Part shown: positions 3,268 through 17,484 of the stretch, in pieces
How the letters are laid out: every line of letters starts with the position of its first letter
How positions within the stretch are numbered: the first letter of the stretch is position 1
Assembly (NCBI GenBank): GCA_902788995.1
Contig: CADAMO010000023.1
Coordinates: 1-35,104 of the forward strand
DNA length: 35,104 nt
Reading direction: 5' to 3'
From: Oscillospiraceae bacterium
GTDB lineage: Bacteria; Bacillota; Clostridia; Oscillospirales; Acutalibacteraceae
Notes under the pieces: generated by a model
What the model was told of the DNA's origin: nothing
The model's database searches: none
The model's input: the letters and a program-made list of their open reading frames with translations, nothing else
Program-made: the position numbers and the translations under genes

Positions 3268-3672
3268 GTTCATTAAAGAACGTGAGGACAAGACGGCGGC
3301 TGCGGCTGCCGCGGAGTCTGGCGATTACTTCGGACCACTCTCCCCGCCGCTTTACGGGGCGGAGTCAAGGCCATACGGACAGCCGGGTCCACTGCCGAAG
3401 GGCGGCGTTTGCCGCGTTATTGATTGAGTTGAAAGCTCAGTTTTATAAGTTGGTTGCTTAAAAACCGAAATGCGTTGCCGCGCAGACTTGTGAAATGGTC
3501 AATAAAGAGTAGTAAAAGTATTCTTGCTGTATAGACTCTGAGTGCCCTTTATCTCCTTTGTCAATACCGGAAAGCATCGGTGCGATCCTTCCGCCGATGG
3601 GCCCGTTTGCGGGCGAACGATTTGTCAGGGTAAAACGCAGGTTGTGTGAAAACGGCTTGCGTTTTTTGTTTT
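3268..3672 (+). ncRNA. Long structured leader or small RNA upstream of arginine decarboxylase
   Basis: No convincing gene occupies 3066-3688. The transcript from 3268 folds well at its 5' end. A basal helix pairs 3302-3311 (GCGGCTGCCG) with 3403-3415. Inside it, 3328-3336 (CTTCGGACC) pairs with GGTCC at 3386-3390 and GAAG at 3397-3400. A strong hairpin lies at 3337-3365 (ACTCTCCCCG with CGGGGCGGAGT). An intrinsic terminator stands just before the start codon, at 3632-3667. Two readings fit: a leader that senses a ligand and attenuates the polyamine operon, or a separate small RNA of ~180 nt followed by a plain leader. I did not recognise a known riboswitch, T-box, 6S, SRP or RNase P signature. 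The structure is seen by eye; the function is inference. Confidence 0.4.
3632..3667 (+). terminator. Intrinsic terminator directly before the speA start
   Basis: AAAACGCA (3632-3639) pairs with TGCGTTTT (3658-3665), and the T-run continues as TTTTTTGTTTTTT. The speA start codon is only ~20 bases further, with GAGGTG between. A terminator in this position normally ends a conditional leader. Confidence 0.6.
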
Positions 3673-10438: not shown

Positions 10439-11503
10439 TCAGCGCTCCAGCGGGAAGGTAATCTCCCAGTCGCCCACAAGGGGGCCGTTGTTGGCGGTGG
10501 TGAAATCGCCGTGGACGGCGTATTCCGCCAGCGCTTCTTCCGGGAGCTCAAAGAGGTACTCTTCGATGCTGTCGTTGTTGCCCGTGCCGTTGTTCAGATG
10601 GCCGGGGGCCCAGAAGCTTTCGGAAAGCACGGGCTCGATCCTGTCCCCGTCCGCGTTTTCCAGCCACAAAAAGCCGTGGTTATCCGTGGAAAGGATATCC
10701 GCATAGCGGATCTGCACCCGCAGATGGCCGTCCGTGTAACCCGCCGCGGTCAGGGTCACGCCCTCCGTCAGCGTTTGCTCCTGCGCCGGGTCTGCGGAAA
10801 GCACGCTGCCCAGCTGGCGCATGGTGTGTTCGGAGAGGCGTTCCTCGATGCCGGGCATATCCGCGTAGCTGCCGCCCCGGTAGTCGTCGTCGGAGAGCGT
10901 TTTCATCTCCGGCGTTCTCGTCACGGAAGCAAGCGACAGCGGCAGGGTCAGGTCGTCATAGTTCCGTTTGTTCAGCAGCAGCTCGTGAACGGAGAAGGTG
11001 GCCTTGTCGCCCTTGTAGGCCTTGCCGCCCATGTTCTGCTGTATCACCGTGTAGACCGCCACGCCCGTCGCGGGATCGTAGCTTTCCATGCGGCAGGTGC
11101 CGGAGGTGTCGTAGGGGGTGCGGAGCATGAAGCTATCGTACAGGTCCGTGGTGGCGTCGATGCGGTCGCCCTCCAGGTCCTTGAAGGCCACCAAAATCTC
11201 TGCCGTGTCGCCCTTGATCTCGGCGGAGACCACCTCCATCTGAATGCCCTCCTTTACGTCGGAACGCTGCACCGGCTTCATCTTCTGGGCCAGCGACGGG
11301 GCGATGGAATACAGCAGCTCATAGGCCGGCTTTGAAACCGGCGTTGCCGCCACCGGAAAGACGCACAGCAGCAGCACGGCCACGGCGGCCGCCAGCGCCA
11401 CCACGCGCTTCGGGGTCATTTTCACCCGGCGGCCGTTTTTGGCCGCGTCTATTTCACGTTCGTCCGCCTCGTTCAGGGCGAACAGCAGGTCTTCGGTTTT
11501 CAT
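10439..11503 (-). CDS. Membrane-anchored anti-sigma-like protein (DUF4179-type)
   Basis: A 354-residue protein encoded directly after an ECF sigma factor, with a four-base ATGA overlap. Residues 1-30 are a charged cytoplasmic segment (MKTEDLLFALNEADEREIDAA). Residues ~33-53 form one membrane helix (VVALAAAVAVLLLCVFPVAA). The remaining ~300 residues would lie outside the cell. This is the layout of clostridial DUF4179 anti-sigma partners: the N-terminus holds the sigma factor and the outer part senses a signal. I see no zinc-binding HxxxCxxC motif, so it is not a classical ZAS protein. The anti-sigma role is inferred from layout and neighbour; the signal is unknown. Confidence 0.7.
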   Translation of the reverse strand: MKTEDLLFALNEADEREIDAAKNGRRVKMTPKRVVALAAAVAVLLLCVFPVAATPVSKPAYELLYSIAPSLAQKMKPVQRSDVKEGIQMEVVSAEIKGDTAEILVAFKDLEGDRIDATTDLYDSFMLRTPYDTSGTCRMESYDPATGVAVYTVIQQNMGGKAYKGDKATFSVHELLLNKRNYDDLTLPLSLASVTRTPEMKTLSDDDYRGGSYADMPGIEERLSEHTMRQLGSVLSADPAQEQTLTEGVTLTAAGYTDGHLRVQIRYADILSTDNHGFLWLENADGDRIEPVLSESFWAPGHLNNGTGNNDSIEEYLFELPEEALAEYAVHGDFTTANNGPLVGDWEITFPLER

Positions 11504-12060
11504 CCGTCAAATCCTCCTTCGGTCAATTCCTCTTTCAGTTTGCCGCGCAGCCGGAACAGGAGCGAGGTCACCTTCGCGGCGCTGAACCCCGTGGCCTGGG
11601 CAATCTCGGGCACGGATTCAAAATACCAGTATCGCAGCAGGAACACCCGGCGCTTGGCCGGGGGCAGCCGGTGTACGAAATCCCGCAGCAGCTCCCGCAG
11701 CGCGTCGGCGTCGGCGGCGCTTTCTGCCGTTTCCCCGGCGGGCAGGCATTCGCTCAGCTCGTCAAACACGGCGGCGCTTTCGCCCCCGCCCCGCTTTTGC
11801 GCGGTGTCGAACCGCACCCGCTTCAGGGCCAGATTGCGCGTCAGCTTGCCCAGATACGCCCGCAGCGACCGGGGCTGCGCCGACGGGATCGCGTTCCACG
11901 CCGCGGCAAGCGCGTCGTTGACGATCTCCTCCGCGTCCTCCCGCGAGCCGAGGATGTGGTAGGCAACGGCATGGCAATAGCCGCCGTAGGCGGTTTCCAG
12001 CGCGGTCAGCGCGGTAGCGTCCCGCGCCTGCAGCCCGCGCAGCAGTTCCCTGTCGTCCAA
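11500..12060 (-). CDS. ECF-type RNA polymerase sigma factor
   Basis: About 186 residues with the two ECF regions. Region 2 is ALETAYGGYCHAVAYHILGSREDAEEIVNDALAAAWNAIPS, followed by RAYLGKLTRNLALKR. Region 4 is LPPAKRRVFLLRYWYFESVPEIAQATGFSAAKVTSLLFRLRGKLK, with the helix-turn-helix near its end. The frame is open upstream to a GTG at 12090. I choose TTG at 12060 because AAAGGAG stands eight bases before it, while the GTG has no site. It directs RNA polymerase to a stress or envelope regulon and is probably held inactive by the overlapping membrane protein. A possible autoregulated promoter (TGTAAG…CGCGG on the minus strand, ~12137-12110) is too weak to call. Confidence 0.85.
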   Translation of the reverse strand: MDDRELLRGLQARDATALTALETAYGGYCHAVAYHILGSREDAEEIVNDALAAAWNAIPSAQPRSLRAYLGKLTRNLALKRVRFDTAQKRGGGESAAVFDELSECLPAGETAESAADADALRELLRDFVHRLPPAKRRVFLLRYWYFESVPEIAQATGFSAAKVTSLLFRLRGKLKEELTEGGFDG

Positions 12061-12194
12061 TCCGTCCGCTCCTTTCAAAAGGCCTTTCACCCATACAGTA
12101 CCCTTCCGCGAGGCATCTCTTTCACATTACCTTACAATTTTTTTGCCGAAAAATCAACCTATCAATTCAGTATGTAAAAAATTTCGCAAAGGGG

Positions 12195-12223
12195 TTGACA
12201 AACCGCCGCGACGGTGGTATGAT
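12195..12223 (+). promoter_or_regulatory. Sigma-A promoter of the methionine leader and metQ operon
   Basis: TTGACA (12195-12200) and TATGAT (12218-12223) have a 17-base spacer. Transcription should start near 12230, immediately before the leader-peptide ribosome site. Confidence 0.8.
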
Positions 12224-12253
12224 TTGATAAAAATTGACAGGAGGATACCGCAA

Positions 12254-12343
12254 ATGACACGCACCGCGACCAACAGAACAATGTGCATGTGCATGATGAA
12301 GCCGAACGGAAATCGCTTGATCATTCGGTATCCCACGCGCTGA
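12254..12343 (+). CDS. Met/Cys-rich leader peptide (29 residues)
   Basis: A short open frame with an excellent ribosome site (AGGAGG at 12239-12244, nine bases before ATG 12254). It begins about 24 bases after the predicted transcription start. Codons 10-15, at 12281-12298, read ATG-TGC-ATG-TGC-ATG-ATG, that is MCMCMM. The peptide ends at TGA 12341-12343, 28 bases before a strong terminator, and the next gene is the methionine-binding protein. A run of the regulatory amino acid in a short peptide before a terminator is the classical sign of ribosome-mediated attenuation. The peptide is likely a sensor rather than a working protein. A small metal-binding peptide is a less likely alternative. 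Confidence 0.75.
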   Translation: MTRTATNRTMCMCMMKPNGNRLIIRYPTR

Positions 12344-12402
12344 TTTTTTCGGGACGATGAAACGCGATTTCCGGAGGCTTGCCGTCAAGTCTCCGGTTTT
12401 TT
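12307..12402 (+). promoter_or_regulatory. Transcription attenuator of the metQ-N-I operon
   Basis: CGGAAATCGC (12307-12316, inside the leader peptide) is perfectly complementary to GCGATTTCCG (12364-12373). This helix shares bases 12371-12373 with the 5' arm of the terminator (12371-12391-plus), so the two compete. If the ribosome stalls on the MCMCMM codons, the first segment is left free and antitermination can form. If it moves on, it disrupts that pairing and the terminator forms. The pairings are read from the sequence; the mechanism is inferred from known amino-acid attenuators. No SAM riboswitch or T-box is seen here. Confidence 0.65.
12371..12402 (+). terminator. Leader terminator before metQ
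   Basis: CCGGAGGCTTG pairs over 11 positions (one G-U) with CAAGTCTCCGG around a CCGT loop. The tail is TTTTTTGTTTTT. It lies about 100 bases before the metQ start and would block the operon unless prevented. Confidence 0.85.
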
Positions 12403-12501
12403 GTTTTTCTGTTCCCGGATCACGTTTTCTCTTGAAATTTGCTCTATATTGGTATAAGATAGAGTTAAATTTAAATAATTCCGAAAAAGGAGAATGAAAC
12501 C

Positions 12502-13380
12502 ATGAAAAAGACAATTGCCCTTCTGCTTGCGCTGGTGCTGACGGTCGGCCTGCTGGCCTCCTGCGCCAAGAAACCCGGCGATGAAGCCACCGCCACCTCG
12601 GCCGGCTCCATCCAGATCGCCATTCCCAACGACACCACCAACGAAGCCCGCGCGCTGATCCTGCTGGAAAACCTCGGCGTGATCAAACTGAAAGAGGGCG
12701 CCGGCGTCACCGCCACCGTGCTTGACATCGAAGAGAATCCCTTCAACGTGGATTTCAAAGAGGTGGAAGCCGCGCAGCTTCCCGGCGTGCTGCAGGACGT
12801 TGACTACGCCGTGATCAACTCCAACTACGCTATCGCCGCCAATCTCGTTCCCGCCACCGACGCGCTGGCGCTGGAAGGCGCCTACTCCGCCTACGGTAAC
12901 ATCGTGGCCGTGAAGGAAGGCAACGAAGAGACCGCCAAGACCAAGGCGCTGGTGGCCGCGCTGGAGAGCAAGCAGGTGGCCGACTTCATCAACGAGAAGT
13001 ACAGCGGCAGCGTCATCAGCGTGGTGGAGAACCCCGGCGACGGCTTTGCCGCCGACGTGGACTATGACGCCCTGGCGGGCGAAACCATTACGGTGGGCGC
13101 TTCCCCCGCGCCTCACGCGGAGATTCTGGCCGTCGCCAAAGAGATTTTGGCCGAAAAGAACGTGAATCTGGAAGTCGTGGAGTTCACGGATTACGTCCAG
13201 CCCAACACCGCGGTGGATTCCGGCGAGATCGACGCCAACTACTTCCAGCACAACCCCTATCTGCTGGACTTCAACGAGAACAATGGCACCCACGTCAACG
13301 CCGTCTCCTACATCCACGTGGAGCCCCTCGGCATCTACGGCGGCAAGCAGACCAGCCTTGACGCCGTCACGGCAAAGTAA
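12502..13380 (+). CDS. metQ: Methionine-binding lipoprotein MetQ, circularly permuted
   Basis: The substrate-binding protein of the D/L-methionine ABC importer, anchored outside the membrane by a lipid on C21 (LASC lipobox after a 20-residue signal). AAGGAG precedes the ATG. All conserved MetQ blocks are present but in swapped order. Residues ~36-180 match what is normally the C-terminal half (IAIPNDTTNEARAL, LGVIKLKEGAG, VEAAQLPGVLQDVDYAVINSNYA). A linker follows at ~181-194. Residues ~195-292 then match the normal N-terminal half (VGASPAPHAEIL, VEFTDYVQPN, GEIDANYFQHNPYL) and end in SLDAVTAK. In ordinary MetQ, SLDEL runs straight into the GxxIAIPND block, so the cut lies exactly at that junction. 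It is followed by metN and metI. The assignment is firm; the permutation is read directly. Confidence 0.92.
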   Translation: MKKTIALLLALVLTVGLLASCAKKPGDEATATSAGSIQIAIPNDTTNEARALILLENLGVIKLKEGAGVTATVLDIEENPFNVDFKEVEAAQLPGVLQDVDYAVINSNYAIAANLVPATDALALEGAYSAYGNIVAVKEGNEETAKTKALVAALESKQVADFINEKYSGSVISVVENPGDGFAADVDYDALAGETITVGASPAPHAEILAVAKEILAEKNVNLEVVEFTDYVQPNTAVDSGEIDANYFQHNPYLLDFNENNGTHVNAVSYIHVEPLGIYGGKQTSLDAVTAK

Positions 13381-13703: not shown

Positions 13704-14702
13704 ATGATTGAATTAAAACACCTGACAAAAACCTTCCACACCGCCGACGGGGACGTGACGGCGCTGTCCGACGTGACCCTGACGGTGGCGGACGGCGATA
13801 TCTACGGCATCATCGGCATGTCCGGCGCGGGCAAAAGCACGCTGGTGCGCTGCATCAACATGCTGGAACGCCCCACCGACGGGCAGGTGCTGATCAACGG
13901 CAGGGATATCGGCTCCCTCTCCAAAAAAGAGCTGCGCAGCGAGCGGCGGGATATCACCATGATTTTCCAGAGCTTCAACCTGCTGATGCAGCGCACCTGC
14001 CTGAAAAACGTCTGCTTCCCGCTGGAACTGGCGGGGGTGAAAAAGGCGGAGGCGAAAAAGCGCGCCATGGAACTGCTGGAGATCGTCGGTCTGCCGGACA
14101 AGGCGAACGCCTACCCGGCGCAGCTTTCCGGCGGGCAGCAGCAGCGCATCGCCATTGCAAGGGCCCTTGCCAGCGACCCCAAGGTGCTGCTGTGCGACGA
14201 GGCCACCAGCGCGCTGGACCCCAAGACCACCCATTCGATCCTGGAGCTGATCCGGGAGATCAACGCAAAAATGGGCATCACGGTGATCGTGATCACCCAC
14301 CAGATGAGCGTGGTGGAGGATATCTGCCGTCACGTGGCCATTCTGGACGGCGGCCGGGTGGTGGAGGAGGGGAGCGTCAGCGACGTGTTCGCCTCTCCCA
14401 AATCCGATGCCGCCAGACGGCTGGTGTTCCCGGAGGGCTACACCCCCTCCCTCTTCGACGAAAATCCCGACGTGCATAAGATCCGCGTGCTGTTCAACGG
14501 CGACGACACCGCCACCGAGCCGGTCATCGCCAAAATGGCGGTGGAGCTGGGGGTCTACGCCAACATCATGGCGGCCTCCACCAAGACGGTGGAGGGCAAG
14601 GCTTTCGGCACCATGCTGCTGGGGGTCGACAGCACGGAGGACGCGCTGCGGCTGATCGCCTATCTGAAACAGTACGGCGTGTATGCGGAGGAGGTGCACT
14701 GA
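13704..14702 (+). CDS. metN: Methionine ABC transporter ATP-binding protein
   Basis: A 332-residue ATPase that powers methionine import from the cytoplasmic face. Walker A is GMSGAGKST (~38-46), the Q-loop is MIFQSFNLL, the signature is LSGGQQQR, Walker B is VLLCDEATSALDP and the switch His is in VITHQ. Residues ~255-332 form the NIL (ferredoxin-like) domain, which in MetN binds methionine and inhibits transport when the pool is high. Its stop overlaps the metI start (TGATG). The set of MetN with a NIL domain, MetI and MetQ identifies the methionine system among similar importers. Confidence 0.95.
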   Translation: MIELKHLTKTFHTADGDVTALSDVTLTVADGDIYGIIGMSGAGKSTLVRCINMLERPTDGQVLINGRDIGSLSKKELRSERRDITMIFQSFNLLMQRTCLKNVCFPLELAGVKKAEAKKRAMELLEIVGLPDKANAYPAQLSGGQQQRIAIARALASDPKVLLCDEATSALDPKTTHSILELIREINAKMGITVIVITHQMSVVEDICRHVAILDGGRVVEEGSVSDVFASPKSDAARRLVFPEGYTPSLFDENPDVHKIRVLFNGDDTATEPVIAKMAVELGVYANIMAASTKTVEGKAFGTMLLGVDSTEDALRLIAYLKQYGVYAEEVH

Positions 14703-15409
14703 TGTTCAGTAACGTATTTACCCCTGAAACCTGGGCGGAGGCCGTCTCCGTCGTCAAATCGGAATTTCTCTTCGCCATCTGGGAGACCTTCTACGTCACC
14801 GTGGTGGCCACCTTCTTCGCGCTGCTGCTGGGGCTGCCTTTGGGCGTGCTGCTGGTGGCGGGCGACAAGGACGGCGTGCTGCCCCTGCCCCGCCCCGTGA
14901 TGCAGGCGCTGAACGTGATTATCAACCTGCTGCGGTCCATCCCGTTCCTGATCCTGATGATCATGGCCTTCCCCATCGCGCGGCTTCTGATCGGCACCAC
15001 CATCGGCACCAAGGCCAGCATCGTACCGCTGGTCATCGCGGCGTTCCCCTTTGTGGCCCGGCTGGTGGAATCCAGCCTGCGGGAGGTCAACCCCAACGTC
15101 ATCGAGGCGGCCCAGAGCATGGGCGCGTCGCCCCTGCAGATCATCTGCAAGGTGATGATCCCGGAGAGCGTCCCCTCGCTGATCTCCAACGCCACCATCG
15201 CCATCACTACCATTCTGGGCTATTCCGCCATGAGCGGTATCATCGGCGGCGGAGGCCTCGGCAAGATCGCCATCAACTACGGCTATTACCGCTATAAGTA
15301 CCTCATCATGTACGCGGCGGTGATCCTGCTGGTGCTGCTGGTGCAGCTGTTCCAGACCGTCGGCACGCGCCTGGCCGTAAAGACCGACAAGCGGCTGAAA
15401 AACAACTGA
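14702..15409 (+). CDS. metI: Methionine ABC transporter permease
   Basis: A 235-residue membrane protein forming the translocation channel as a homodimer. Hydrophobic helices are visible at ~20-45, ~60-80, ~88-110, ~150-170 and ~195-215. The cytoplasmic coupling loop that contacts MetN is EAAQSMGASPLQIICKVMIPES, the EAA motif of importer permeases. It starts on the metN stop codon and is followed by a terminator at 15423, so metQ, the small ORF, metN and metI form one unit. Confidence 0.95.
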   Translation: MFSNVFTPETWAEAVSVVKSEFLFAIWETFYVTVVATFFALLLGLPLGVLLVAGDKDGVLPLPRPVMQALNVIINLLRSIPFLILMIMAFPIARLLIGTTIGTKASIVPLVIAAFPFVARLVESSLREVNPNVIEAAQSMGASPLQIICKVMIPESVPSLISNATIAITTILGYSAMSGIIGGGGLGKIAINYGYYRYKYLIMYAAVILLVLLVQLFQTVGTRLAVKTDKRLKNN

Positions 15410-17135: not shown

Positions 17136-17484
17136 ATAAGAGGCGTTGAGGAAGAAAAGTAGCGCGAAAGAGTGTTTTCAGAGAGCGTGGGACGGTGGAA
17201 ACCGCGCAGCGGCGTTCGTGTGAAGAACCCTTCTTAGCTTTGACCTGAACGAATAATCGTAGCACGCCGTCTCACGGCGTTCGCAACGCGATTCCGATTT
17301 TTTCAGTAGGTGATACGGTCGTCGCCCGTTACCGCGACAGGCTTTGTGATACCAACGTGGTATTCAGAAGCCGTAAAGAGAGGCCCTTATCGGGCAAAAT
17401 AGGTGGTACCGCGGGTTACAGTTGCTCGTCCTATGAAACGCTCTGGCAGACGTCGGAACGGGGACAGTCAACTGTATTTTTTAT
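17136..17484 (+). promoter_or_regulatory. T-box leader specific for tRNA-Asn
   Basis: The leader senses uncharged tRNA-Asn and controls transcription into asnS. Stem I elements are present: GAAGAAAAGTAG near the start, TCAGAGAGCG, and the specifier region GAAGAACCCTTC, where AAC at 17226-17228 is an Asn codon. The T-box AGGTGGTACCGCG is at 17401-17413; AATAGG just before it can pair with CCTATG after it to form the antiterminator. The competing terminator joins ACAGTTG (17418-17424) and GTCC to GGAC and CAACTGT (17469-17475), followed by ATTTTTT. A GTAG-headed repeat sits between stem I and the T-box. Matching specifier and downstream gene make the call firm. Confidence 0.93.
17259..17302 (+). 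repeat. GTAG-headed hairpin repeat inside the T-box leader
   Basis: GTAGCACGCCGTCTCACGGCG starts a hairpin (ACGCCGT with ACGGCGT) like those of the other intergenic repeats. The following 21 bases (17282-17302) are the exact reverse complement of 15746-15766 in the repeat array before capA. This shared tail argues for an inserted repeat rather than a normal T-box stem. Confidence 0.6.

Follow-up and report, generated by a model that had tools for sequence, protein, structure and literature searches.

A Met/Cys leader peptide as a probable attenuator of methionine uptake genes in a clostridium

The sensing of methionine in Firmicutes is generally ascribed to SAM riboswitches or Met T-boxes. 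The locus described here, which belongs to an Oscillospiraceae bacterium and lies in a window of 35,104 nucleotides (the whole stretch of DNA that was analysed), raises the question of whether a clostridial methionine transporter operon can be governed instead by the translation of a short upstream peptide. The features of the leader lie on the forward strand. The promoter P1 (12195-12223) consists of TTGACA (12195-12200) and, after 17 nucleotides, TATGAT (12218-12223), with 11 of 12 consensus matches, and is followed by a leader Shine-Dalgarno (SD) site, AGGAGG, at 12239-12244. From an ATG at 12254, an open reading frame of 29 codons (12254-12343, with the stop TGA at 12341-12343) encodes the peptide MTRTATNRTMCMCMMKPNGNRLIIRYPTR, which has similar leaders in relatives. 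Within this frame, the sequence ATGTGCATGTGCATGATG (12281-12298) specifies Met-Cys-Met-Cys-Met-Met, a run that is proposed as the sensor on the basis of the sequence and of the relatives. The 5′ arm of the putative antiterminator (12299-12316) comes next and comprises CGGAAATCGC at 12307-12316, which forms 10 bp with 12364-12373, and an extension at 12299-12303, which can pair with 12376-12380. The 3′ arm, GCGATTTCCG (12364-12373), is the perfect complement of 12307-12316, and its last three bases (12371-12373) are shared with an intrinsic terminator (12371-12402) made of an 11-bp stem (12371-12381 with 12386-12396, including one G-U), a loop of 4 and six T. The first-pass annotation had described a promoter, an SD site, a 29-codon peptide and a Met/Cys run, all of which were found again at or within one base of where it had put them, as were the perfect 10-bp helix and the 11-bp terminator before metQ. 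On the 3′ side of the terminator, a promoter-like site named P2 (TTGAAA-17-TAAGAT, 12432-12460) has 9 of 12 matches and is weaker than P1; this site could bypass the attenuator and supply transcription of metQ. Neither P2 nor the three-base overlap of helix and terminator figured in the first-pass annotation.

The downstream genes had been taken to be metQNI, and their domains agree with this. The first, metQ (12502-13380), codes for a substrate-binding lipoprotein (PF03180, NlpA lipoprotein, E=1.2e-78), metN (13704-14702) for an ATPase with a NIL domain (PF00005 and PF09383), and metI (14702-15409) for a permease (PF00528), all on the forward strand. The closest NCBIfam models for these proteins are those of MetQ, MetN (TIGR02314) and MetI (PRK10782), all with scores under the curated cut-offs, that of MetI just below. 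An ECF-type sigma gene (11500-12090) lies on the opposite strand and is transcribed away from the leader, so that P1 begins its own transcription unit. The MetQ of the window is, to judge from the order of its halves, circularly permuted: residues 193-290 align to the first half and residues 38-172 to the second half of ordinary MetQ-type structures, for example 4ib2, in the 2 of 22 matches whose alignments were viewed. MetQ relatives that match it unbroken from end to end should have the permuted order too, and a literature search for a permuted MetQ found nothing.

The leader of this operon very probably regulates methionine uptake by ribosome-mediated transcription attenuation of the trpL type. 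RNA synthesis from P1 would yield the leader, whose peptide would be translated at once. When charged Met-tRNA (and, as we infer, Cys-tRNA) is plentiful, the ribosome would pass the run and cover or clear the 5′ arm of the antiterminator; with the arm covered or cleared, the terminator would form and metQNI would not be transcribed from P1. A ribosome stalled in the run would leave free the arm just ahead of it (12299-12316), which would pair with 12364-12380 once this is transcribed and open the foot of the terminator, and the polymerase would then read through to metQNI. Leader RNA that is left untranslated would, by its computed fold, take the terminator form.

The recurrence of such leaders was examined at metQ loci of relatives. 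A match was present in 32 of 200 family genomes, 17 of 26 genus genomes and 31 of 394 order genomes, and a species genome collection contributed the best 80 of its 323 relatives; the merging of loci with an identical 150-nt upstream stretch reduced 152 loci to 143. Counts were made on the 68 metQ loci, window included, whose match scores 300 bits or more and whose upstream sequence is no shorter than 400 nt; a leader was recorded where an SD-led ORF of 10-60 codons has 5 or more Met/Cys within 10 consecutive codons. Leaders of this kind precede 22 of the 68 loci, which are not 22 independent events since close relatives (L123-L125, L067/L068, L145/L148 and L051/L052) were kept unthinned; 19 loci have at least 6 Met/Cys in 10, and 46 are below the leader threshold. 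The reverse strand of the same loci gave no leader, and neither did any of 20 dinucleotide-shuffle rounds. Across genera the peptides are nearly unalike (for example MKQICAATKNMMGMRMCTMCMFCCATFSD..., MKHSVAMMMYEMCMGMSMRMLRC... and MYVRVRHSDMMMCMCMMKLSEKCFVNGIA) save for their Met/Cys richness, which is the residue expected from selection on codons and not on a protein. An exact copy of ATGTGYATGTGYATG occurs once in the genome (92.7% complete), in the window, and a copy with one mismatch lies elsewhere (L157).

Within the genus, the leader is present at 6 of 17 metQ loci (L001, L112 and L122-L125), with a weaker run of 4 in 10 in L112. The other 11 are without such a leader; among them, L003 has just 265 nt upstream, and L113 and L114, two of the three nearest MetQ relatives (86 and 82% identical), have a different upstream sequence. 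For the signals that accompany the peptide, a set of 27 leaders (window included) was taken from the 29 that pass at least 4 Met/Cys in 10. L134, which has a type II leader (see below), and L046, which resembles a chance ORF, were left out of this set; two Gemmiger loci (L067 and L068), with an ordinary unpermuted MetQ and a low score, were retained, and the latter shows that a named strain, Gemmiger gallinarum DSM 109015, has a Met/Cys leader. A promoter that matches the consensus at 10 or more of 12 positions lies within the 110 nt upstream of 23 of the 27 leaders (0.5 expected from shuffles); an SD site of at least five bases accompanies 24, and a terminator 3′ of the leader stop 26, by terminator finding in each sequence. 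The first-pass annotation had named, as the finding that would speak against it, relatives that keep the terminator without the peptide or its Met/Cys codons; the opposite was found, with Met/Cys, SD, promoter and terminator staying in place as the peptides diverge. Five more possible Met/Cys leaders, whose SD is weak or absent (L007, L045, L009, L137 and L017), are outside these counts.

With regard to the pairings, the complementarity of the antiterminator has a p of 0.004 against shuffles in the window and of at most 0.004 in L001, L123, L124 and L125. Over 26 leaders, p<0.05 is reached singly in 5, and the pooled p of 3e-6 comes from four leaders of the genus, of which three are near-copies; in distant leaders the pairing evidence is weak. 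Covariation was studied in an alignment of five same-genus leaders (the window, L112, L123, L124 and L125), a small sample with three close members, in which 98% of the cells of the helix 12307-12316/12364-12373 are paired. Changes on both sides affect 3 of the 10 pairs, G-C, U-A and C-G of the window being A-U, A-U and U-A in L123-L125. The cells with such changes number 6 against 2.5 in shuffles, a value reached by none of 500. The helix has a covariation score of 0.41; shuffles give 0.20, again with none of 500 attaining the observed value, and sliding the partners gives 0.12 at most. By two further measures the antiterminator does not stand above shuffles: 3 pairs have both-sided changes against 2.2, a number that 196 of 500 shuffles attain, and the further pair types amount to 5 against 5.1. 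The terminator helix shows no covariation in this alignment, where terminator loops are misaligned, and terminators were sought sequence by sequence instead. The folding z-scores of the whole region are mixed, with 10 of 26 below -1. Another pairing, which the full-length leader adopts in its minimum-energy fold, joins CGGTATCC (12326-12333) to its complement GGATACCG in the SD region (12243-12250). It keeps 7 of 8 pairs in all five aligned leaders, and covariation is uninformative about it because CGGTATCC is nearly invariant across them; in an untranslated leader this helix could mask the SD, as a possible closed state of the free leader.

The effect of ribosome position was computed by folding the RNA ahead of the ribosome codon by codon, the front edge being assumed to lie 12 nt beyond the first base of the A-site codon. 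In the window, with the A site at 12281-12293, the antiterminator has a probability of 0.88-0.98 and the terminator foot one of 0.05-0.36; with the A site at Met 12296 the state is intermediate, the foot being formed at 0.79, and all six positions computed between Lys 12299 and the stop give the foot a probability of at least 0.997. Since the foot opens in the run and is intact from Lys 12299, the computed switch point falls where the Met/Cys run ends. The free leader is computed to form the terminator at 0.97 and the antiterminator at 0.02. The model thus has antiterminator and terminator as mutually exclusive states set by the position of the ribosome, with an exclusion that in the window would concern the foot: the 10-bp helix displaces 3 of 11 terminator pairs, and an 8-bp hairpin remains with a probability of 0.99. 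In L123-L125, the nascent fold captures the entire 5′ arm of the terminator (8 of 8). Of 26 leaders (window included), 23 have a higher probability of the nascent antiterminator when the ribosome is in the run than when it is at the stop, a trend that is partly trivial because more exposed RNA favours the antiterminator in any sequence; in the exceptions (L122, L133 and L052) it does not drop from run to stop. Free leaders favour the terminator in 25 of 26 cases (0.66-0.99), and L136 has a value of 0.00. Together, the leader class with its empty controls, the covariation of the antiterminator in five leaders and the computed switch at the end of the run lend support to the attenuator that had been suggested from the letters alone.

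The amino acid that this attenuator would read has to be considered separately. Among the 856 internal residues of the 27 leaders, Met occurs 171 times and Cys 70 times. We lean towards a joint sensing of both. A serious, though lesser, possibility is that the leader reads Met only and that its Cys codons are a by-product of the RNA (for example of TGCATG repeats) and not a second sensor. Such a leader would be in accordance with the excess of Met, with the use of TGC for 59 of the 70 Cys codons and with the runs of L051 and L052, which are mostly Met. When 12 alternative residue sets were applied to the 68 loci at 5 in 10, ten gave none, Cys alone among them, and Met alone gave 15, as did Met plus Trp. 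However, the count goes from 15 to 22 of the 68 loci once Cys is added, Cys recurs within the run of most leaders despite their otherwise unrelated peptides, and the proposed metY leader of the same genome (see below) has MCCRM.

The existence of P2 gives some ground for a different arrangement, in which leader and terminator would constitute a separate small transcript, for a small protein or an RNA, and metQNI would be driven by P2 (12432-12460, 9/12). Promoter-like sequence can also be seen by eye just upstream of metQ in the leaderless relatives L034 (= L114) and L035. This arrangement is nevertheless improbable: a P2-like site just upstream of metQ accompanies just 3 of the 27 leaders, the window among them, all 27 precede metQ though their peptides differ almost wholly between genera, the changes on both sides preserve an antiterminator that a plain terminator would not need, and the same kind of leader is also present before metY. 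Less probable still is that the peptide product matters and its codons do not, the peptide being, for example, a small metal-binding protein rich in Met/Cys. Copper can be bound by Met/Cys runs, but beyond Met/Cys the sequence is unconserved between genera, a terminator follows it (and, in the genus, an antiterminator right behind the run), and its location is before methionine genes. Finally, it is hardly credible that a known SAM riboswitch or Met T-box does the regulation and that the ORF is incidental, for although the genome has two SAM riboswitches and the window a T-box, no Rfam riboswitch or T-box, nor any other Rfam family with the exception of two tRNAs, attains its gathering score, whether at the leader or at 60 related metQ loci.

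The two SAM riboswitches are located elsewhere in the genome (L154, G000:C78, and L155, G000:C92), the first preceding metK as read by eye. The T-box leader of the window (17137-17436) lies, also by eye, before the asparaginyl-tRNA synthetase gene (asnS) and AsnA, and looks ordinary. The cell has the usual riboswitch and T-box tools, yet methionine uptake seems tied to the translation of Met/Cys codons. The window also contains, at 3332-3398, a match above the Rfam threshold to SpF59, a Streptococcus sRNA family, in this clostridial genome.

A link with other methionine genes was obtained by searching the leader-core pattern ATGATGGARATGTGYATG in the 394 genomes of the order with at most one mismatch, which gave 18 matches in 16 genomes, against 1 for the reversed pattern. 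The exact matches all lie in SD-led leaders (6 of 6), three before metQ and three before metY; the metQ ones are the source leaders of the pattern and were known beforehand, and the metY ones are new. One of these MetY proteins is an O-acetylhomoserine aminocarboxypropyltransferase by TIGR01326, and the others are 93-96% identical to it. The 12 matches with one mismatch comprise two leaders (L161 before metQ, which is the known L148, and L162 before metN), nine located elsewhere and one unread (L166). In the genome of the window, metY itself (L206, G000:C112:3800-4600) is preceded by an SD-led leader, MFTQRTVNNWMCCRMLHSRACD..., with MCCRM, which at 4 Met/Cys in 10 is below the threshold. Behind it lies CTCCCGGGCA, which is exactly complementary to TGCCCGGGAG in the terminator and so makes a perfect 10-bp antiterminator. 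The folding model gives an antiterminated probability of 0.62 with the A site at Met, 0.10 at the first Cys and 0.27 at the second, and would place the switch around the Met-Cys-Cys codons. Related leaders, in which CGA-ATG is kept too, occur at L196, L215, L216, L220 and L222.

Another kind of leader peptide, called type II, carries NFRxGRM and was observed in 20 of the 51 metY upstream regions examined (within L179-L225), the motif being followed by Cys or a stop in 19 of the 20 and by Tyr in L207. It is also present at several metQ loci (L132, L136, L006, L011 and others), sometimes behind a Met/Cys leader. A pattern that permitted other Arg codons before the ATG gave 21 matches in 147 genomes, in every one of which that codon is CGA (control, 0), and the genes that follow were read by eye as metY in 12, metQ in 6, another binding protein in 1 and unclear in 2. 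The genome of the window has no match to this pattern, and a search for sequestration of the metQ SD behind the second uORF revealed no consistent hairpin. From these leaders a broader proposal can be made, to which we give an even chance: that Clostridia of this order run sulfur amino acid genes, namely metQNI and metY, by translated leaders in place of riboswitches and T-boxes. Type I would be the Met/Cys-run attenuators, as in the window; type II, the NFRxGRM leaders (mostly then Cys or stop, and sometimes in tandem behind type I), whose CGA-AUG pair may be a built-in stalling site that senses Met-tRNA or another signal via the nascent chain; and type III, the MCCRM leaders before metY, including that of the window genome.

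The biological significance of this organization would be a division of labour within one genome, which appears to control metK by a SAM riboswitch but uptake and homocysteine synthesis by translated Met/Cys leaders; the SAM signal and the charged-tRNA signal would thereby be kept apart. As a sensor codon, methionine is awkward because every protein starts with Met, and a conserved Met-run attenuator makes a separate reading of the charging of elongator Met-tRNA testable.

Several known systems can be compared with this leader. In the proteobacterial attenuators of the trp/his type, an SD-led ORF contains codons of the amino acid of the operon, and an antiterminator and a terminator exclude each other. 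The window leader shares these three traits; it differs in its Met/Cys codons, in its occurrence in Clostridia and in that the classical 1:2 pause hairpin is not established; the SD pairing may close the free leader instead. SAM (S-box) riboswitches and Met T-boxes likewise control methionine genes of Firmicutes by premature termination, although none reaches its Rfam gathering score at this locus, which has a putative translated sensor in their place. In bacilli, a histidine leader peptide that replaces a T-box has been predicted before hisS paralogues (PMC2965389), and it is likewise a regular leader-peptide attenuator of Firmicutes, for another amino acid and gene. Cysteine leader ORFs have been described in cys operons of Mycobacterium and Propionibacterium and before cbs of Bifidobacterium (PMC1262725). 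As in the window, they place codons of a sulfur amino acid in a short upstream ORF; unlike in the window, that work places the Cys runs near the stop codon with no conserved terminator hairpin, and its authors saw no conserved RNA structure before methionine operons.

The closest known case is in Streptomyces. The first-pass annotation had considered a translated Met/Cys sensor for metQNI in a clostridium not to be a described class, a claim that has to be corrected, since a Met/Cys-rich leader before metNIQ has been reported in Streptomyces lividans (PMC8079986). The metL of strain TK24, MSTTSDRTPATEATTTPGARCMCRRMCAF, is listed in Table 4 of that paper and has 29 residues with a Met/Cys-rich C-terminal part (...ARCMCRRMCAF). 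Its authors term it an attenuator and describe it as leaderless and as lacking a typical intrinsic terminator; the residues they name are methionines and threonines, with cysteine not mentioned. A literature search for Met/Cys leaders in Clostridia, whose reach excluded subscription papers, found none; the letters of the run, of the type II motif and of MetL led to the Streptomyces paper alone, and no NCBIfam leader-peptide model is matched at E≤1 by any of five peptides (four Met/Cys leaders and one type II). The precedent means that this kind of leader is already known and that the clostridial form is a variant of it. Both are Met/Cys-rich peptides of 29 residues before the same transporter operon. 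In contrast to the leaderless actinobacterial metL, the window leader has an SD site (12239-12244), a terminator (12371-12402) and a covarying antiterminator, and its kind also precedes metY in clostridial relatives. In this SD-led and terminator-bearing form, the clostridial Met/Cys leader appears to be new, and the comparative support for it is good.
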